Shown: one piece after another, positions 3,051 to 64,000 of the stretch | How positions within the stretch are numbered: position 1 is the stretch's first letter | Layout: each line of letters opens with the position of its first letter | DNA from: Polytrichum commune | Taxonomy: Eukaryota; Streptophyta; Polytrichopsida; Polytrichales; Polytrichaceae | Assembly: GCA_950295325.1 (NCBI GenBank) | Contig: OX485805.1 | Coordinates: 14,557,501-14,621,500, forward strand | DNA length: 64,000 nt | Direction: 5' to 3' | Made by a program: the position numbers and the translations under genes | The notes under the pieces: generated by a model | What the model saw: only the letters and a program-made list of their open reading frames with translations | What the model was told of the DNA's origin: nothing | Databases searched by the model: none

Positions 3051-4269
3051 TCTAGGCTTCTTCCCTTTCTAGCTTTCTAATAGCAAGTCTTTTTCCAACT
3101 ATAGATCTAATATTTTTTGTAGAAACATAGGAGAAAGATGGAATAGGTATAGCATAAATTCTTGGTTATAGCCGTTTTTCCATTACATGAGATAGATCTA
3201 GCAGCATACAATCTAGCACCACTATTCGAGGACGTGGAGATATTGTTGTATTTATTAGGAAATCTATTTGCACATGGGTCTCACATCTTCCCTCTTCTCA
3301 CACAAACACACATATATGAATTAAGATCCACAAGGATATAGGTCTCTCCACGAATATAGATAGATAGATAGATTGATAGATTGATGTCATTCTCCACCCT
3401 CTAGTGCCAAAAACTACAAATCTACAAACACAAATCCCTACACTCTTGTTTTCACCGAGTTTGTTTATGATTAATCTTTAGGGAAAGTTTTTCTAGTATG
3501 AGATTTTTATGCTCGAACAATCTCTCCAAGGACAAGACCTCCATCTTGACGACAATGGCATCAACCTCATAGAGGTCCCCAACCCCATGGCTTGAGAGAA
3601 TTCAACGACAAATTTGATCATTACAATGCATTCAGTCGATTTTTAATAAACAATTTGTCATTTTCCGTCTCTGCTATTCCTATTGGAGTAGACAAGCAAT
3701 GTCGAATTTTCACTTGTTTCTCTAGTATGGACCGGGCTAGTGTATTTGACTACCCCATAAGTGAACTTAACTCCCTTTGTAACTCTATCTCCGATTTCTC
3801 CATATGTAATAAACAACCCGATTCTAACCATTGCCCCCTCTTCTTTAAAAAAAAAAGGTCATATTGTAGGATCGAGGCTTCCAACCCCGTTTAGTCAAGG
3901 ACAAGTTCTTTGTCCCAATCCTAAGAAAGAAAACCAATATGTTGTCAACATCAAACATGAACTCAGATAGATAGAAACTCTAGTCCCTTTTTAGCAAGGG
4001 GCCGGCGTGAATAAAGTGTCCATTCGTAATGCCAATGACCCGATGCCCACTGGACAAGGGGACATTGGGACAATACTACTCTCCCCTTTCGAGGATGGAC
4101 ACTATAGTGACACACTATACTAGTTCCTAGCTAGCCACTAGTGCCTTGAAGATACCAGACATGGTATCCCCCCAAAGGGCTTTGAGGTACCCATACAACA
4201 AGGTCCAAGGACCCCCCACCAAAGTTGGGTGGACTAAGGTGGCTACAAACATGAACTCACTTATGTACA
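3051..4269. other. Upstream region of SOQ1 and unassigned sequence
   Basis: This stretch should contain the SOQ1 promoter in its first part. A GATA-type microsatellite lies at about 3354-3384. A 100-codon open frame at 3592-3894 has no recognisable domain. It could be the degraded upstream part of the LINE that follows, but I cannot show this. Confidence 0.4.
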
Positions 4270-6720
4270 AGGTGACACGTACACTTCATTAGACGACCAC
4301 GCTCAACCATGGTTACACTTGATACTACACACAACTCAACCTATTTTCTTTAAAAACCTAGTGGCAAACAATGAGGCAGACCATCCAACACATGGTTTGA
4401 TAGTGATTATCGAGAGGCTTGGTGAAACTTCCATATGGTGTTAAACTCTAGTCACTTGAACAATACCTCCATAATGGCTTTCAAAAAATACCGCATGATA
4501 ATCTAGTACAAGAAGCGCTCTTACCTGGAGCACAGACAAAGGAACTACTCAAAAGTGACCCCAAATTATTTTGGAAAAGCTTGAAAAAAAAAGATGATCC
4601 AACCCTCCCATTTACACCACAAGAAAGCAGTATGTTATTGCACAATACTATACACCTCAGGACAAAACATCATTGATGATTTTGTTCCAAACATTCAACT
4701 TCTTGATGTTTTTACAATAGAGGAAATATGGGCCCATATTAAAGATTTAGCAAATCACATTGCTTTTGATTTCCATGGGTTAAAACTGGAGTTTCTAAAA
4801 TAGGTCGCAAATTATTTGTGTGAACCAATCATATTCCTATTTAATTTCATGGCTAAAGAGGGTTTCCCAACTTCATGGACTATCAACATCATTCAAATGA
4901 TTTTCAAATCTAGTGAAAGACACTCCCCAGGGAACTATAGGACCATAATGCTCGGAATAATCTTTGACAAACTTTATGGCTATGTTTTGAAGAAAATAAT
5001 TAGTCGATGGGCAGATTTCAAAGGGGGCAGAGCAAGAGGACAAGCAAGTTTCAAGGAAGCAAGATCTACTTTGGACCACATCCTCACATTACATACTTTA
5101 ATCAAACAAGAAGTATTTGCATGTTGATGTCTTTATTCTTGTTTTGTTGATTTAAAAAAGCTTTTGACACAATCCTGCATGACAAGCTTTGGGCGCACCT
5201 CCAATGATTAGGTGTACCACCTCATTTACAACATGTTGTGAAAGTCATGTACACCGCAGTCTATGCAGAAGTTCGAATAAATGGTGACACGCATGGTGAC
5301 ATAATGTCCAACATTGGTGTTAAACAAAGATGTCCCCTCTTCCCACGCTATTTGGCTTTTACATTGATGAACTTGAAACATATTTGGACGAGATCGATAG
5401 AGAATCTCCGTTTTATTTAACACTGTGATTACCATTCTTCTTATGTTGATAATGTTGTCCTACTCTCTAAATTTGGACGAGGCCTACAAAGACTTTTGAA
5501 CAAGCTATATGAGTTGTGCACCTCTTCTAGCCTTGAAGTCAATTTATCTAAGAATAAAATCATGATATTTTGGCTGCAACAAAAGGAAATTAAACCAAGA
5601 GGCATGTTACCTAAACAAGGACCCAATTGAGATAATTTGTGAATACAAATACCTAGGGATTGATTTTTATTCACATAGATACTTTGATCCATCTAGTAAA
5701 AGATAAAGAAGCAAGCATGAAAGCGTTGATTGGCACTTTAAGGAAAGAAGCAACAGTCAAAGTTATAAGTTGGGAAGTCAATCCCATCTATTCAAGGCTT
5801 TGGTGCTTCCAACTATCACATATGGAACTGAAATTTGGGTAGGTGACTCTCATTGGAAGGTTTTTGAGAAGGGCATGAAGATGCATATGATGTCTCACGT
5901 CAAAGTGCATTCTTTGACAACCTATCATATTTTGATTGCCGAATTTGGAGAATTTCCCATAGAATTACACACTCTCAAGCTCACTATAGGCTTTCAATAA
6001 CGGCGACATCTCTCCACTCTTGGTTAGTCAATAAAGCAGCCTCACTTTCTGGACACTTGGCCAACACATGGATTTTAACACCTAGCACAAATCGACAACC
6101 ATGTGGAAGACATCATAGGGTCTATCTCACTAGGACACCCATGACAACCCAAACGCATCTAAAATAACATATGATGATATCAAGGAGGCCTTTATTGCGA
6201 AAGAGTGGAACTCTTTCCATCTCCCAAGGAAGAAACTAGATTAACTCCACCTCAAGGATTTTCTCAAGTATGAATGTAAATTGTACTTGAAGCGACTATT
6301 GACACCACCACAACGCAAGATCATTGTTGGTTACTGCACCTCAAACCATAGATTAGTTGTTGAAACTTGACAATGGTCAACTATCCTTGTCTCTAAAGAT
6401 ACTAGACTACGCCACATTTGCTCCTATAATGCGGTTGAAAATAAAGCACATTTCATGTTGGAATGTCCCCTATATATGCCCACTAGAGATAAATTTCCAT
6501 CATTATTTGAGAATGTAGTCCCAGGGAGCCTCGAGTCTTTCTTTCAATTGATGCCAAGTTGATATTAGCCTCTATCTCATAGAGGCTACTAAGTACACCC
6601 TACCACTCAAGAGAATTAGTTGGTTTGAAACCATCATGATGAAGTTTTAGTCCCATTAGCCTTTTCAGCTTTTGGGACTTCAAAGTCAATTTCATTTCAA
6701 TAAGCTTTTCTCGTCCTTTT
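4270..6720 (+). mobile_element. Degenerate LINE (non-LTR retrotransposon) ORF2 remnant
   Basis: Broken frames read as a LINE reverse transcriptase. At 4816-5127 the N-terminal RT segment is clear, with PGNYRTIMLG and RARGQASFKEARSTLDHIL. Near 5140-5180 FVDLKKAFDTI gives the first catalytic Asp block. At about 5310 GVKQRCPLFP corresponds to the usual GVKQGCPLSP. At about 5435-5460 YVDNVVLLS stands where an active enzyme has YADD, so the catalytic pair is lost. After the RT, KYLGIDF and LPTITYGTEIW (to 6000) and a terminal ECPLY block (about 6460) follow in order, as in plant LINEs. Many stops and frameshifts interrupt the frame. The 5' limit is uncertain because no endonuclease domain could be recognised. 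No flanking target duplication was found. Confidence 0.85.
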
Positions 6721-6744
6721 TTCTAATAAGTGTTTGTGTGTCAT

Positions 6745-7007
6745 TGGAGTTATCCGTAAACTCCCTCAAAGAGAGATGAAACTGTGGATTTAATCGTTCT
6801 TTGAGAAAACTTTTCATTCAAAGCTCGCAAGCTTGTCGTACATTGGACCTTATTTTGAAAGTTGAATTAAACGTCATGACGCCACTCTTTGTGCATGGTA
6901 ATTTAAGCATTAAGAAAACTTGGGTGACTTTGTGATAATTTTCATAAACTCAAGGTTTGGGGCTAAACCCATGGTTTCATCTCCCTTAATGTACAAATAA
7001 CTCTATT
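6745..7007 (+). repeat. MITE family M1, copy 1
   Basis: The ends are imperfect inverted repeats: GGAGTTATCCGTAAACTCCC on the left, and on the right the complement of AGTTATTTGTACATTAAGGG. Both continue into an AGATGAAAC motif. Two further copies lie at 7391-7812 and 11886-12873. The internal phrase CACTCTTTGTG..ATGGT..TTTAAGCA also recurs at about 48870-48910, marking a fragment there. Confidence 0.65.
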
Positions 7008-7390
7008 GGATAGTGTTAGAATGACTATCCTAGTCTCATCCAATGTCAAATACTTATCCCTTAAAGTCTAGTGACCCTACCATACAACTACAAATGTTGT
7101 ATATTTTGAAGAGGTCCTCCATACATGTACATAATTACGAGTTATAATTTGTGTAGCATATGTATGTGTAGTATACCCCTTTTGTGCACTCACACATACT
7201 CACACATGTGATGAAAGGTGCACCCCGAAGGATATAGCCATCTTTTGGGCAAAGTCGAACGTCTCCCCTTCATTTCACGAAAATTGGATATTTTAGGACC
7301 ATTTGAAGACTCCTTAACCATTATAAACTGTCAAGAGCGGGCAAAACTCCCTACCAAACATGAGCCTTTTTAAGAGACTTCAATGGTACC

Positions 7391-56044: not shown

Positions 56045-58310
56045 TGTTGTGCATTTTTTTTGTTTTTTTTAGCTTAAATGAATTTTATGTGTGAATGGCC
56101 ATTACTTTGAACTAGAAAAGATAAACTACTTAGTGTGAAATGGCTATCGTCTTGTGATAGGAGGAATTAGGCCACGTGAAGTCTATGGCTGGGTAAGAAG
56201 AGGCAAACAACTGATATAACTACTTTTTGGAGGTTGAGAAGAGAGGAGGTCATTCATTATGTGTGTGTCTTGTAGGCGAGAGACCGAGAGCTTAAGGGAG
56301 ATTTCTTGAACCTTCTGACATGTGTGTGGATTTTTGGTGAACTTAATTTTAAATCTTATATTGCAAGCACATGCGTGGGATGCGCATCTGCTAAGGGCAA
56401 TTGTCTGTTGTTGTTGCTATCGTAATTATATTAGTTCCAGGGAGATTTTACTGGAATTGTAACTCAACAATTGTTTGATTTTGGAGCACAGTCTGAATGC
56501 CATAAGTTTTGAGGTTTGAGTTTTAATAATATGTTTAATTTAGAGTTACCTGTTACAGGTAGCAGTCTTTATATGCCGTATCAGTTGATGTTTATTTTCC
56601 TGGCAAGGCTATTTACTGAAATGGCAATTACCTGTACTGACGAGGCTATGGTCTCCATCTGGGATCTGAGTGTAGTAATTTTGCAGAGGCTGTTTATTCA
56701 AACGAATCACCTAGTTATATGAAGAGCAGGGAATCATGAAATCATTATTTGTTTAAACGAGAACTTGTAGTCTGATTGGATTTTACGCAGCCAATGAGTT
56801 TAATTTAAGTTCAGAAATAGTTATCTTAAATTAAGAAGTCTCACCTTAGGCCATGGTCTTGAGAGTCTAGTTGTAAAGCCTACTGGAATATATCTTTGAT
56901 GTAATCTCAAATTGAATGGCTTAATCGTCTGAGAGGGTTCTCAGTCGAGGCTATAGTCTGACTTGTAATTGATCGTAACTAATGTTGCATTTTATTTACT
57001 TTGAGGCTATGTGATCTCCGTATCGGTAAGCAGTGTTAATACCATGAAGTCAATAACCTTTGCACATATGTTCATTGAATGTGATTCATTGAGTATGCGT
57101 TCGATGTTGGATTGTGTGCAAACTGTTAATTGAGTTGTATGACAACCTGAATGTATTTAGACATATTGCAAACACATTTGAGTGCGTAATATAGCTCAAA
57201 GATTATTGTCTCTTCATTGGATATACTTCCACACTTCTAACTTGTCTCTAAAGATAATTGCATCACGAGTCAATTGATTTCAATAGGATTTCAGTTTTTC
57301 AAATCGATTTGAGTAAAGAGAGTATTGTCGTTGTAATATGTGAAAGAGTTAGAGAGTTGTGACACCGGATTTCCGGGCACAATTAAATTGAGTAAGAAAT
57401 AAGACTATTGTTTTCAATGTGTAAATGGAGAAACTGTTCTTAGTCTTGAATGGAAGCCGAAGCGCCAACATGGTGAGACTACGGTCTACGAAAGGTTATC
57501 CAGTGGCGGAGAAGACAAAAGGACGTGCCGTTTACCATATTGGTATGATTTGATTATTGTCTCACACCTTGCAAGGATTAAAGTGAATTGGACCTTTTAA
57601 TACTTTAAGAAATGAATTGTTTAAACATTATTCATAATAATGAAATGAGTTGCTAAGTCAATTGTCTAAGTTTTGAGTGTATGAAATTGAAACCTTGAAT
57701 GAACTAAATGAGATTACGAGAGATGTGAGAATATGTTGACACGCATATGTGGTGATGGCTTATTGACGCATTGACCGAGCATATGATTACTTGATGCCAA
57801 TCAGGTAAAAAGACAATTGTCGGACTGTGAAATTAAGATTGAAATTAACGAACGAAGACTGAATATCCTAAATGGATTACGGACAGACATTTCAAGTTTC
57901 ACTAAACATGATTAATTAAGGAAAGATTATTGACTACTCCAAAGTGCCCGTGGCTTTGGTAAAAAGACATAAATGGGTTACTATTGCAAGACTATTGACT
58001 ATGGCTGTGCCTATGATTTTGCACCGCACTTGGTCCAATTAAAATGAACTCACTGCCAGACTATTGACTGGGAATTTAGAGTGAGAAGAGAGACTGTCAC
58101 TTTTGCATGCACTGTTGTGGAGTGATCTTTTAGATGTTTTTATCCCCTACCCGTAAACCAATTGTCATACCTAACTTGAAATGAAGTGTTATAACCTTGT
58201 GTTTTCCCTAATAAACCTTATCTAAGACACCTAGATGTTAGATGAATCACCTTTTAAGTCTTCCCTGATTGTTTCCCTGGGTTTTGTTTGTAACCAAAAA
58301 ACTAACTACA
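56045..58310. mobile_element. Solo LTR (2266 bp) inserted in the Ty3-type element
   Basis: The insert starts TGTTGTGC and ends AACTACA, the canonical TG..CA LTR termini. The five bases GATGG stand on both sides (56040-56044 and 58311-58315) as a target duplication. Removing the insert and one GATGG rejoins the retrotransposon frame at codons Asp-Gly-Ile. The interior is AT-rich with no gag or pol and no internal second terminus that I could find. So it is best read as a solo LTR left by recombination between two LTRs of a different family. Confidence 0.85.
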
Positions 58311-59180
58311 GATGGCATACCAGTGAATAGAAGAACTAGAAAGGTGAAGACTAGAGTTGCCGCTAGGATTCAATCACAAGGAGGTCGAGATGTGAAGGCT
58401 ATAGAAATAGAGGTCATCATAGTGGACAAGGTGGTCCCCAATGTGCTAGTGGATGGAGGAAGTAGTTTGAACATCTTGCCGGAACACACTATGAAGAAAT
58501 TGGGTCTTAGTCTTACGGGTCCTTTAGCTTTGATTATAAACATGGCCAATCAAAGCTCAACCACACCTTTGGGAATGATTAAGGATTATAGGATGACCAC
58601 CGGGGGAGAGGAATATTTAGTTACTTTTCATGTAATTAAGATGCATTCCAACAAGGACTCATTCCCCATCTTGTTGGGAAGACCTTGGTTGAGAATGGCC
58701 GATGCCATAGTAGATTGGGGAGGTGCGAAGCCATCCATTACTTATGGTCCTAAGGATAATCGAATCAAAGTGTCAATTGGGTCATTAGGGGGGGTGGATG
58801 AAGAAGGAATTGTATCTACCATTGGAGGAGGAAGACCTTGACAAAATCAAAGATGAAGGAGGAGAGGCTATAGTTGGAGTTGTCCATCCCAAAAGTCAAA
58901 ATACCTTTACGGAATCGGGTTCGGGAAGTTTAGGTCCTAGGTTCTACAATTATGGAGATAATGGGGAGTATGCACAATGGTTAAGGGAATATCCCGAGTC
59001 AGAGTTTGATATATTGGCGACATCTCACCATCCACGTTTGGGCAACAGAGAGAAGTTTGAGTGGCGGGGATTGTTTGTTGTTAGAACCATGTGAGGTGCT
59101 CACCGAAGAGGAGTGGATCTTAGGGGGTTTGACGCATTGGGTAGATGATGTGGGCGATGTAGAGGTTAACCCTTAAAGGA
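58311..59180 (+). pseudogene. Ty3-type aspartic protease and linker, truncated pol
   Basis: The frame continuing from gag-pol reads NRRTRKVKTRVAARIQ, then the protease active site NVLVDGGSSLNILPEHTMKK (Asp-Gly-Gly in place of Asp-Thr/Ser-Gly, a variant common in plant Ty3 elements). The flap-side and C-terminal block FPILLGRPWLRMADAIVDWG follows. A one-base shift near 58800 leads into an acidic linker (LPLEEEDLDKIKDEGGEAIV, to 59094). Similarity then stops. Reverse transcriptase, RNase H, integrase and the 3' LTR are absent, so the element is a 5' fragment. Confidence 0.85.
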
Positions 59181-59239
59181 GGTTGCAGGCCAAAATGGCC
59201 TACGGTTTCTTGTATTGGGTTGCTGGTGTAGGGTTCTTC

Positions 59240-60160
59240 ACCGAATTAGGCCTAACTCCGAACTACAGATGTCTCGGCACTGCCTAGAGGCTGCCTTCTT
59301 GATTTTCCAATTAATTTTCAGAGTTGTGTGGCGATGTCGGCGTCGAGGTAAGTGATGCCTTCTGTGTATTTCTACGCAATCCAGCAGAATACGTACACCG
59401 TCTGAGCTTTGCGGGTACAGCCAGCGCGGTGACGCACCGTATTTTTCTGGTGGCCGTTGATGACCGCTTCGGCCGGTAGGGTCGTTGGCAAGACACGCTC
59501 GTGTGGGCAAGGGGAGCGCGAGGGCATTCCCCTGCTTTTGCTTCGCGCTCCACCTTCTCCACTCCATGTTTAGGGTTCTTGTAGATCCCTGGTCTTTTGT
59601 TGAGTGGCATCCGGACGTCATGGCGCCGGCGATTTTGATGTTTGGAGGCGGCGAATGCGATTGTGACCACCACGTCTGTGGTACTGGGTTATGGGACAGG
59701 GGGGAAATGGTGTCCCGCTTTCGGAACAAGACGTTTTCGTTGCGGCGCATTGTCCTATACCCATTTTCAATCTCTGGATGTGATCCGTTTTTGCAGTTCC
59801 AATCTCGTTTCAGTGAGTGGGAAGAGTTTACATGGAGAGTAGCCGCACCTCAGCGAGCGCAGAGCGCGTTTCTTTGGAGTGTGAGGTGCATAAGTGGTTC
59901 TCAGGGCAGGGGGTTTCAAAGGAAGGCGCTACACGGGCGGTGCAACTCCTGGATGCGAGCACACTCCTCGCGCAACCACGCCCGAGCCGGTGTTCACCAT
60001 TGAAAAAGAGGTTGTATGCTTTGAGGTCCCTCTAACTTGTGATGCCCGTTTCAAGATTCCATATAGAAATATACCAACCTGAAGATGGAGCAATTGCATA
60101 TTCACGCTGGTGGCAACATCAGAGTTCTCTCTCTCTCTCTCTGCTTCATAATTATTCATC
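59240..60160. other. GC-rich segment of unknown nature
   Basis: A 0.9-kb GC-rich segment follows the retrotransposon fragment abruptly. It has long overlapping open frames on both strands (172 codons plus at 59485-60003; 170 codons minus at 59238-59750), which is what CpG-rich sequence gives by chance. None has a recognisable domain. It could be a captured gene fragment, a promoter island or part of another LTR. A (CT)n run lies at 60128-60142. Confidence 0.35.
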
Positions 60161-60894
60161 TCTTTATTGCTTACTGCTTCAGGAATGCTATCTTGTGAGC
60201 GGTGAGCGGTGAGCAGAAAATTTGAATTTTTATTCTTCAAATTTTTCAATGAAATGTATGATATAGACCCTATGACCGTGGAGAATTTATGGTTTCATTC
60301 TATAAAATCTGCATATTATTTAACAAAAATTAATCAAGGTCCTATTCCCGCGGAGGGATTTTGCAGTTCACACAAATGAATTTTTTTGGAAAGACCTTGT
60401 AAACAAAAAAAACACCTTTGGTACATTAGAATCTCCCAACATGCATATCAACATGGTTGAATTTTTTTCAAATGTCCCAATTTAAATAGTCATCATCTAG
60501 ACATTAAAGTGGTTAATAAAGTACGCATCCATTTAAGTACGCATCATGGTTAAGTGCGCAATATTTTTTAACAAAAATCAGGGTTTGTATTTTATTGTTT
60601 GAATATGTCATGTAGAGTCGTTTATCGCGAATGCATGAATTTTTTATGCTTGACATTAAATGTCAGTTTGTTGACGTTTTGCTAAAACGTCTCAAACGAT
60701 CATCACAATTCATCATACATATGTCTAGCTTCCGTTTGAACATCGGAGCAAAGCAATTGGTCGTCGATGTTGAGGACAATGTTATCTAGAGCTTCAAAGC
60801 CTTTAAAGTTCTTAAAATCCAAGGTTCATAAAAATAAAAATAGATCATATATTAGAAGGAAATACACGTATTTTTATGTGAAGTGCTTCAATGA
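60161..60894. other. No gene; downstream flank of the methyltransferase-like gene
   Basis: AT-rich. It should hold the 3' untranslated region of the minus-strand gene that ends at 60895. The word AAGTACGCATC occurs twice (about 60519 and 60536). Confidence 0.45.
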
Positions 60895-63800
60895 TCACGA
60901 AGACATTTCAACATCATTAGAAGCCTCAATCCATCCTTCCTCGCTATCACTATCACTAGATGATCCATCAACTTCTGCAGAAATATGGAAATATTTTTCT
61001 ACAGGATGGCAACTACTATGTTTTTCTGGAGAAGGGTCTGGTGATGAAGTAGCTGCATACGCTTCTGCAACAATCTCAGCATGAAAAGGAAGCTGAAAAG
61101 GTCTAATAGAGCTTCTAATCTTACTGATATAGTGTGAGAGAATGCTTCCATCATACTTCATCCTAGAGGACTTCAACGCTTCCTTGCGCCATCTATAAAC
61201 AAGTAAAAATCAACCATTTAAAAATGTTGGTAAGAAAAATTGAGGAAATGTTTAAAAATTTGAAGATAGATAGTGTAGACTTACTTACAAGCTCGCTTGG
61301 CAACAATCTTCTTCTCTGGCTCATCTGCATTCTCCAAAGGGCGTTTCTTCTTTGGAGAAGACCTTGTAACTTTGACTGATTGAACTTCTTCAGCTTGGGG
61401 AAGAAGAGGAACCAATACCTCTTTGTATAAGATACTGTCATATTCAAATGCAATAATATGACGATGAAGACTCTTTGATGCCCGAACAGAAGCACCTGAA
61501 ATAAACAATACCATTTAGTACTTGGTATAAATTAATGACAAAACATATCAAAAGAAAAGTATAAGAAAAAAATAATACATGTGGAGGCTGTGAGGTCCAT
61601 GACAATGTCATCTTCAACCGTGCAGAGATCAATAAAAGCCATGAGTAAATTAAAAGACTTCTCTCGTGCACCTCTAAATGGCATTCTATTCTCCAACTGA
61701 ACAGTTAGAGAATCAACATCAATGAGGTTTGTGAGATGTCCATCTGATGACAACTTGATGCCCTGTGCAAGAAGTTCAGGACGGTCACAAAACACAAAAT
61801 TGGACATTGGAACCTCTTCATCCGGATTTTCCTTTCTAACAAAGCATTTCACCATGAAACACTTGTGCGTACGGGATGGATGATCCGGGACAGTAAAAGG
61901 AAGGCCGTTAATTGCAAACCACTTGGATTCCTCCTGAAAATTTGCCCAATCCGCCCAAGATAAAAGCTCATTGGATATAAACTTTGAATCATGATAAAAT
62001 ACAATGAGGGCACCATCATCTTGAAGAAACTGCATGGCAAACTCAAAATGCCTCTTGATCCATATGGATTCCACTTTTCCATATGGTTTAGTCTTTGGAT
62101 GACGGTTCCAAGGTGGAATTTCACCAGCAATACCAAGTCCAGGAACAGGTAAATCCTCTGGAACATCAAAGATAACAAGATCAACTACATTGTCAGCTTC
62201 ACAATCCGCATAGCTTCGAATCTTTTTACCTTGATGATCTTTAATTCATGCCTTCATACGCCTCCAAATCTTTGGCTCATCACTCTCAGTAACATCATCA
62301 AACAAGTTCAAAATACCTAAAGGACTATCATGGATGATCTCTATCCTACTCTCTACATCATCCAACTGCGAGCATGTGATAGTATACACCGTTTGTGAAG
62401 AAAAAGGGGCAACGGAAAGAGGCACCTGAGAAACCAAAGGAGTAATAGTAGCGGGCATGCTACTGCCTGAAGGAGAAATACCCACATAAGAAAGAAGTTT
62501 CTCTGGCCCTTCCTTTAACACAAGCTTCGCCAACTCTTTGTTCCGTGCCGCAACCTCCTTCTTCAACTTTATTTCCTCCTCCTTGCCTTTCTTCTTTTCT
62601 TCTTTCTCTTTCAAACGAGTTTCAACCTTTGCTTTCTTGTCAGCCAATTTCTTCCTTTGTTTGTCAGATATAGAGTTGTCATCACCCACCTCCGATGCAT
62701 CTTCTTCAATATGCACCAAATTCTCAACCTCTAATTGTTGCATCATATTGTCACAACTAGCCTTTAAGGCTCTCTCCTCTCCAGGACATCTTTCATTTTC
62801 CTTTAACTCAAGATACCAAGGACATTGAAGAAGATGAGGTCTTCCAAAATATTTTTTCTGCTATTTTGAAAAAATACATTCACTACTAGAAACATCCATC
62901 CACTTGTTAAAACGTTGAGGAATGTTCTTCCTATCAATGGCCCCCTTAATCACCAACTCCCTCCAGAAATATCTCAAGATAGCTCTCTTCATAGCATTCT
63001 CAGTACCAGCTTGGACAAGAAATAACTCTTTCTTTGTATAAGTGCCATCCTTTGAAAAAAATTCTTTGAAAGCCTTCCCCCACAAAGTAATAGAATGGGA
63101 CTCAATCCAAGTTCCAATATCGTCCACTGGGTTGGGCAAGTCCTCGGTCTTCAATATGATAGCATCTTCTTCCATAATTTTCTCAAATCGATTTACTGCC
63201 TCTTCCTCTAACTGCAACAATGTACAATTATTCAGCAAAACAAATTCAATTCAATCCATCTAATTCTCAAATTTTAGATATAACTTAAACTTCATAAAAA
63301 ATACAAATATACGGTTCAAAATAACATACCCCAGCCCAGAAGGCAGCTTAATCTATCCAAATCCGAATAACTGAATCAGAAGCGGATGAGGGAGGAAAGT
63401 TGTATTCTTTACGACTCTCCTTACTCATATTCCACCACCTTAACCATCTCTCTTTATGCTTCGAAGAAACCTTTGTTGTTGCAATAAGTTGTAGTTTCTC
63501 TGAAGTCATCTCAAGCTTCACTTGAAAGATATCAAAGTGATGAATAATCTACTTTCAAAAGTACAATTAAATTAGTAAAAATTTGCACTACAAAAAAATA
63601 CATAATATAGAAAACATTTAATGACATATATGCAAAATTTACGACATTAATTGTTTAGGTTTAACCCTCTCAAACCCGTAATCAAGCCAACCACACAAAA
63701 TAACATCACAAAAACCAATGAAGGCCTCCTAATTTAACTAATCACTTACCTCAGCCACATAGAACTTCTTCTAAAACAAAGCATACAATAACCATGTAAA

Positions 63801-64000
63801 GGGCAGTAAGAGGATTATTATTTCATAAATATTTATTATAAACGTCCCATCTAACTTCTCTCAGATCCGAGACCATGCAAACCAAGTTGAATAAAATTAC
63901 AAAAAACAAAAAAATATATGATAGATGGTGGAGCACATACCTCTCTTATGAAACCCTCTCCATTTGCTAGATTGGCAATTGCGAGGTACCGAGATAGGTC
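60895..64000 (-). pseudogene. DNA N4/N6-methyltransferase-like nuclear protein, three in-frame stops (partial)
   Basis: Six exons join without a frameshift on the minus strand: 63941-64000 (open at the edge), 63750-63770, 63330-63548, 61579-63211, 61285-61495 and 60895-61192. All borders are GT-AG. The order is an N-terminal helical region, a Lys/Glu coiled coil (about 62520-62690), then a methyltransferase-like core. The core has DLVIFDVPED where motif IV (DPPY/SPPW) is expected (about 62155-62180). WIKRHFEFAMQFLQDDGALIVFYHDS follows as the next strand-helix block in shortened view, IKRHFEFAMQFLQDDG. Then REKSFNLLMAFIDL resembles motif X and DIVMDLTASTCAS resembles motif I (DxFxGxG), split by an intron at 61579. 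IV before X and I is the beta-class order. A basic SPKKKRP (about 61340-61360) suggests nuclear import. The tail is Ser/Asp-rich. Stops at 63348-63350 (TAA), 62861-62863 (TAG) and 62246-62248 (TGA) block translation. Motif residues are degenerate, so catalysis is doubtful. Confidence 0.72.

Follow-up and report, generated by a model that had tools for sequence, protein, structure and literature searches.

The methyltransferase-like gene in positions 60895-64000 of the window, by which we mean the whole 64,000-nucleotide stretch of Polytrichum commune DNA analyzed, is most likely the accessory (second) gene of a large family of Mutator-like DNA transposons, present here as a dead copy in a non-autonomous element, with a domain that comes from a beta-class methyltransferase and bears an altered active site. 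This reading is based on observations in the host genome: how the transposon is built, its high copy number, the order of its genes, the homology and the purifying selection. The protein encoded by the family probably aids its jumping gene rather than carrying out the usual DNA methylation.

The gene lies on the minus strand, and positions 60895-64000 cover its 3' part. A single frame can be spliced from the exons 63211-61579, 61495-61285 and 61192-60895 across GT-AG introns of 83 and 92 bp, in accordance with the intron-bearing gene assumed by the initial annotation, which was made from the letters of the window alone. Upstream, the 3' end of another exon (...LAIANLANGEGFIRE) enters from beyond the window at 63941-64000, as read from the sequence, and an exon (EKLQLIATTKVSSKHKERWLRWWN...) was placed at about 63521-63334 by the splice reading, with similar blocks in the relatives L020, L048 and L056; its edges are approximate, with neither a clean AG before it nor a clean GT after it. 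The large exon (61579-63211) encodes the greater part of the methyltransferase-like domain and, besides, a region rich in Lys and Glu that looks helical. The motif IV position, where DVPE stands for the canonical DPPY, was located at 62156-62167 by alignment and locus-by-locus reading, followed by the motif X-like RGAREK at about 61658-61675, whose R, G, E and K are invariant in a 10-member alignment, and by the first part of motif I, DLTAST, at 61580-61597, located by alignment and exon reading. These motif coordinates were calculated from the exon limits, and all the peptide blocks previously listed in the IV-X-I order are present. The splice reading places the 83-bp intron (GTATTATT..TATTTCAG) at 61496-61578, where it splits motif I; the next exon (61285-61495) contains the second half of the motif (ASVRASKSLHRHIIAFEYD), which continues as ASVRASK..HIIAFEYD at 61493-61437 on the minus strand, and the stretch SPKKKRP at 61358-61338. 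After the 92-bp intron (GTAAGTCT..TTTATAG) at 61193-61284, the last exon (60895-61192) encodes an acidic Ser-rich tail and ends with the stop codon at 60897-60895, so that both SPKKKRP and the tail recognized by the initial annotation belong to the spliced frame. The transposon ends, the N-terminal domain past position 64000 and the interruption of the frame are additional to that annotation.

The frame of the window copy is interrupted by two in-frame stops in the large exon, TAG at 62863 and TGA at 62248, and probably by a third one, TAA, in the exon at about 63521-63334. The position of the 62248 stop is open in three sister copies, L004, L005 and L006, which read RMKAWIK(D/E)HQG. The family thus has copies more open than the broken one in the window; as the window copy is dead, any function applies to its relatives. 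Structure prediction from the single sequence of the 237-aa window exon was uninformative (mean pLDDT of 36.8 and pTM of 0.30).

Profile comparisons support homology of the C-terminal half of the gene product to beta-class amino-methyltransferases (PF01555; CcrM). The 237-aa exon alone scored 13.2 bits against PF01555 (E 0.087), below the cut-off of 26.7, and is unconvincing as a member because the intron splits motif I. The exact spliced window sequence reached 21.0 bits (E 3.5e-4), still below 26.7, and the same stretch with the Gly of the family in place of the Cys of the window in motif I reached 28.2 bits (E 2.2e-6). The PF01555 check proposed initially thus leaves the window copy itself under the cut-off, with the relatives L049 (35.3 bits) and L048 (32.4 bits) above it. 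We used a cross-subfamily alignment of 10 members, in which the first row (window) carries Gly at the final position of motif I, where the window DNA itself reads Cys; in this alignment the Asp of motif I is invariant and the final Gly is conserved to at least 90%. All 10 members matched PF01555 (best E 2.6e-8), the PHROGs DNA methyltransferase family 3008 (best 1.3e-8) and the CcrM model (best 9.8e-7) at E<=1. When the alignment profile was compared with the PDB, CcrM was matched over positions 16-233 of 245 (E 2.4e-7) and DpnA over positions 182-237 only (8e-8 and 8.9e-8). The L049 domain weakly matched 14 phage records, and among the matches listed (10), with E-values of 0.1-0.9, all are annotated as methyltransferases. 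Across the family the motif I region persists, exemplified by DVNAGVG in L013 and DLFVGTGASFHAA in L049, as does the RGxxEK block of motif X. Pfam, the PDB profile matches (CcrM, DpnA) and PHROGs therefore bear out the beta-class N4/N6 methylase homology that had been suggested from the peptide blocks. PF01555 also matched small contigs of the assembly with 98.5, 68.0 and 55.4 bits (C10:4592-5212, C10:15117-15353 and C12:29682-30278), which may be bacterial contaminants.

The active site of the family deviates from that of the enzymes. Motif IV was read at all 41 fetched methyltransferase-domain loci, of which 36 are distinct (the duplicate pairs being L003/L010, L005/L011, L008/L012, L048/L054 and L049/L050), and the canonical (D/N/S)PP(Y/F/W) was absent at every one of the 36. 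The position of the aromatic residue is occupied by Asp or Glu at 33 loci, by Asn in L018, by a stop in L038 and by Tyr in L048. Thus, the catalytic aromatic residue of motif IV is replaced, nearly always by an acidic one, and the motif I and X regions are kept. Catalysis by amino-methyltransferases needs the PP and aromatic residues of motif IV, and the unusual, possibly non-catalytic site suspected in the window copy proved to be a property of all 36 loci. Pooled pN/pS was 0.15 for the L013 type (15 pairs), 0.24 for the L018 type (6 pairs), 0.36 for the L048 type (10 pairs) and 0.58 for the window type (21 pairs, L007 left out). Selection preserves the protein in the family, most clearly in the L013 type, and the conserved replacement together with the low pN/pS points to a changed function under selection, not to decay.

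The preserved motif I (L013, L049) and motif X and the purifying selection on the domain could also be explained by a protein that is still active as an amino-methyltransferase despite its unorthodox motif IV, xxP[E/D], and would mark the element with 4mC, 6mA or another modification. We consider this improbable in view of the PP pair missing at 36/36 loci and the aromatic residue missing at 35/36. The single DIPY copy, L048 (C1:9662141-9662830; found again as L054), comes from a subfamily with an uninterrupted methyltransferase frame of 577 aa; as a sign of an active enzyme it was set aside, since all five sister copies (L049, L051, L052, L053 and L055) read DIPD.

The gene of the window resides in a transposon, the in-window part of which spans 60180-64000. 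Both ends could be located, the flanking duplication is identical at 10/10 positions, and the element is collinear with the L010 element. The whole element comprises 12,971 bp, from window position 60180 to about 73150, past the window end (G000:C3:14617680-14630650). Its target-site duplication, CTTACTGCTT, lies at 60170-60179 and is perfectly repeated over 10 bp at the far end, outside the window. The terminal inverted repeat on the methyltransferase-gene side (CAGGAATGCTATCTTGTGAGCGGTGAGC) occupies 60180-60207 on the plus strand, and the far side begins with CAGCGACGCTATCTTGTGAGCGGTGAGC. Comparison with L010 and L013 defined the element ends as CAGGAATGCTATCTTGTGAGC... on the gene side and CAGCGACGCTATCTTGTGAGC... 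on the far side, and the ends of the L013 element read CAGGAATGCTACGATG.. and CAACGACGCTACC... The terminal inverted repeats of about 28 bp are imperfect and recur in distant subfamilies, and GGTGAGC repeats are found at the element ends. Perfect 10-bp duplications flank all three elements for which both ends were examined, namely CTTACTGCTT for the 12,971-bp, TTTGCAAGTC for the 13,303-bp and ATTAAGAAAA for the 14,697-bp element. The 21-nt gene-side terminus has 68 exact matches in the genome, compared with 0 for the reversed control; it occurs exactly within less than 8 kb downstream in 15/18 window-type copies, and with mismatches in L004 and L006. The ends accordingly outnumber the 18 window-type genes, and this surplus suggests deleted or miniature derivatives of the family.

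The window element differs from the L010 element at 228 of 12,935 aligned bases, counted in alignments of at least 900 bases with a shift of no more than 600. Transition rates per site, from this one unpolarized pair, were 4.7% in CG, 4.1% in CHG and 2.3% in CHH contexts, a pattern that fits methylation of cytosines by the host and their later deamination. Tandem arrays precede the exon of the N-terminal domain, with a 157-bp unit repeated 5.5 times in the window element and 8.5 times in the L010 element and with units of about 128 bp and 427 bp in the L013 element; further arrays occur elsewhere in the window and L013 elements, and window 58000-64000 was free of tandem repeats in TRF. A repeat, one strand of which is GVTPGTCGAVGERAQVILVWVRAPGVGNASHPQRLGG in L014, is shared in or beside the elements L014, L015 and L004. 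Beside the window element, an open frame at 58269-58841 on the plus strand contains a retropepsin-like VLVDGGSSLNIL stretch and by eye looks like part of a Ty3-type retrotransposon.

A count in the host genome, also proposed by the initial annotation, gave 1249 first-look candidates for the methyltransferase exon, 1034 for the N-terminal domain and 1820 for the transposase; these totals are rough counts, and 150 candidates were scored for each. Eighteen of the methyltransferase-exon places are of the window type (70-100% identity), and the rest are 29-43% identical. That the genome is a plant's shows in its LEAFY-domain matches, three strong ones and a weaker one, and in TTTAGGG arrays that run from the first base of contig C1. 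The initial annotation had considered the gene to be domesticated or transposon-borne. The ends, the duplications and the transposase linkage described below speak for the second alternative; the first is unsupported because the window copy is broken and belongs to a mobile, multi-copy family. Domestication as a single-copy DNA methylase gene of the plant, related to N4CMT, would agree with the introns, the nuclear-import-like stretch and the plant host, but it is contradicted by at least 150 scored places, the flanking duplications, the stops in the window copy and the missing catalytic motif, and we regard it as hardly credible.

The full relative L013 contains a stop-to-stop frame of 1234 aa on the opposite strand, upstream of the methyltransferase gene, that ends in a CxC...CxH block. 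This arrangement recurs in the genome: of 127 non-window-type methyltransferase places, 44 have one of the 150 scored transposase places no more than 25 kb away, and in 41 of these 44 the two genes diverge, the transposase being upstream. In 500 trials of random placement the means were 2.45 linked and 0.64 divergent-upstream pairs, with maxima of 8 and 4. The test included 145 methyltransferase places of 153 matches, with five second pieces of window-type copies left out. No scored transposase was found within 25 kb of any of the 18 window-type copies. Of the L013 transposase, nothing but residues 1186-1225 is matched in the window element, close to its far end (C3:14629828-14629947), and we therefore consider this element non-autonomous. 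It keeps the accessory gene despite the loss of the transposase, and the higher pN/pS of the window type fits relaxed constraint after that loss.

We call the element Mutator-like because of the duplication length, the terminal repeats, a weak SWIM match and our own reading of a CxxH/DDE-like block. The 10-bp duplications at all three elements and the inverted repeats of about 28 bp are features of this kind, the target-site duplications of Mutator-like elements ranging from 8 to 11 bp according to an excerpt of PMC6446971. The L013 transposase protein (1233 aa) had no match in Pfam at E<=5, including PF10551 and SWIM. PF10551 has 142 matches in the whole genome. Of the four transposase stretches scanned, only that of the relative L026, which lies some 10 kb upstream of the L010 element, matched SWIM, at 17.0 bits (E 0.0042) and so under the cut-off of 19.6; the other three did not. 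By our own reading of the sequence, the L013 transposase would be a divergent Mutator-like transposase, not a member of PF10551. Transposase relatives at C3:13620514, C3:58494812 and C3:12064149 were reported with open frames of 2390-2527 aa, lengths that are unreliable because one of them, L059, contains an N stretch. Near another Mutator-like transposase, a frame pair in L026 at 4229-5338 (plus) and 5361-7136 (minus) looks by eye like a Harbinger-type transposase with a Myb-like partner.

Mutator-like elements tend to pick up host gene fragments, as PMC6446971 describes, and the gene could in principle be such a chance capture without function for the element. This is very unlikely, because the gene recurs in divergent subfamilies and keeps its place and direction with respect to the transposase, and because the low pN/pS in the L013 and L018 types reflects purifying selection.

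The N-terminal domain of the accessory gene lies past the window at C3:14622059-14622508 and has an invariant DGNH and 22 invariant columns among 10 members; all 150 scored genome places matched it. We tentatively assign this domain with its DGNHR motif as ParB/sulfiredoxin-like, by eye and from mixed weak profile matches. The ParB-like phrog_1033 matched four of the 10 members (best E 0.2), and the unnamed phrog_9020 scored better in two (0.0096). In Pfam, one of 10 members matched DUF1015 (E 0.053), which we take to be ParB/Srx-like, and one matched the unrelated phage tail family PF20608 (E 0.0032). The PDB profile search with the domain returned no ParB match, the best being a ribosomal protein (E 0.0049). 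A bacterial fusion of ParB and adenine methylase, Bce_0392 of B. cereus, is described in an excerpt of PMC5512222 and makes the ParB reading attractive, albeit unproven.

The protein of the family consists of the DGNHR N-terminal domain, a helical-looking middle and a C-terminal descendant of a beta-class N4-cytosine/N6-adenine methyltransferase. It may bind the DNA of its own element, with the tandem arrays near the N-terminal exon or the terminal GGTGAGC repeats as candidate targets, and the methyltransferase fold may serve SAM or DNA binding as a pseudo-enzyme. By analogy with VANC21, such a pseudo-enzyme could counter the silencing of its own element. According to an excerpt of PMC5735166, VANC21 binds its own element at short motifs arranged in non-coding arrays, and these arrays evolve by tandem repeat formation. 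Escape from silencing aided by a SAM-binding, VANC-analogous factor is a possibility we advance tentatively. Nearly as likely, though still doubtful, is the prediction that the pseudo-methyltransferase helps transposition itself in a mudrB-like role, as a DNA-end or integration factor whose N-terminal domain nicks or clamps DNA. mudrB is apparently needed for integration according to PMC6446971, Bce_0392 is reported to nick DNA in the excerpt of PMC5512222, and the gene was retained in the window-type element that lost its transposase; on the other side, the ParB assignment of the N-terminal domain is weak. A more far-reaching scenario, which we regard as rather unlikely, is an arms race: DNA transposons of plants would have taken up a bacterial protein of the ParB-methylase type and, by re-tooling its active site to xxP[E/D], turned it into a SAM-dependent anti-silencing or DNA-marking factor that recognizes the tandem arrays of the element itself, possibly with a chemistry foreign to the known amino-methyltransferases.

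The family resembles several known systems, each in part. It shares with the PF01555, CcrM and DpnA enzymes the IV-X-I order, motif I, the motif X region and the profile matches, but it differs in the replacement of DPPY/SPPY, nearly always by xxP[E/D], in its introns and in its location in a eukaryotic transposon. VANDAL21/Hiun of Arabidopsis is likewise a plant Mutator-like element with an extra gene and non-coding tandem arrays; in contrast, the elements here have 10-bp duplications, and anti-silencing belongs to VANC and is only proposed here. The term methyltransferase is absent from PMC5735166, which accordingly does not describe VANC as methyltransferase-related. ParB-methylase fusions such as Bce_0392, to judge from their description, would share a possible ParB-like N terminus followed by an adenine-methylase-type domain, whereas the gene here is a plant gene with a long middle part, an acidic tail and tentative ParB homology. 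Bacterial-type amino-methyltransferase domains also occur in two other eukaryotic cases, the bdelloid rotifer N4CMT and the Marchantia 4mC methyltransferase. The rotifer N4CMT, however, is a host gene that keeps the catalytic SPPY, as stated in PMC8885841, unlike the transposon-borne family without SPPY. To judge from the rotifer enzyme, the link to Marchantia drawn by the initial annotation would go no further than the shared superfamily.

Mobile elements carrying DNA methyltransferase genes are known: an excerpt of PMC5890265 describes retrotransposons with methyltransferases, namely DIRS (Dam-like) and elements of Symbiodinium and Klebsormidium, and mentions DNA transposons with DNMT from marine viruses. 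Those genes are Dam-like or C5-cytosine (DNMT), whereas here a cellular DNA transposon carries a beta-class-like domain with an altered site. Mutator-like elements with extra genes are also known from PMC6446971, and the word methyltransferase is absent from the main text of this MULE survey, whose table gives a SET domain for some Phytophthora elements. None of the titles and abstract openings among the matches listed names a DNA transposon of a cellular genome that carries a gene of methylase type, subscription journals and preprints being outside the scope of this search. Among the matches listed there was thus no cut-and-paste element from a cellular genome whose gene resembles beta-class amino-methyltransferases, as opposed to the methyltransferase retrotransposons and the Mutator-like elements with extra genes already described.

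For annotation, the family is a warning: a gene labeled "DNA methylase N-4/N-6" in a genome of this kind may belong to a transposon and have a non-canonical active site. The known accessory genes of plant Mutator-like elements include silencing counter-measures (VANC), and a large, selected family with a methyltransferase-fold accessory protein suggests that DNA modification may be something transposons can read or rewrite.
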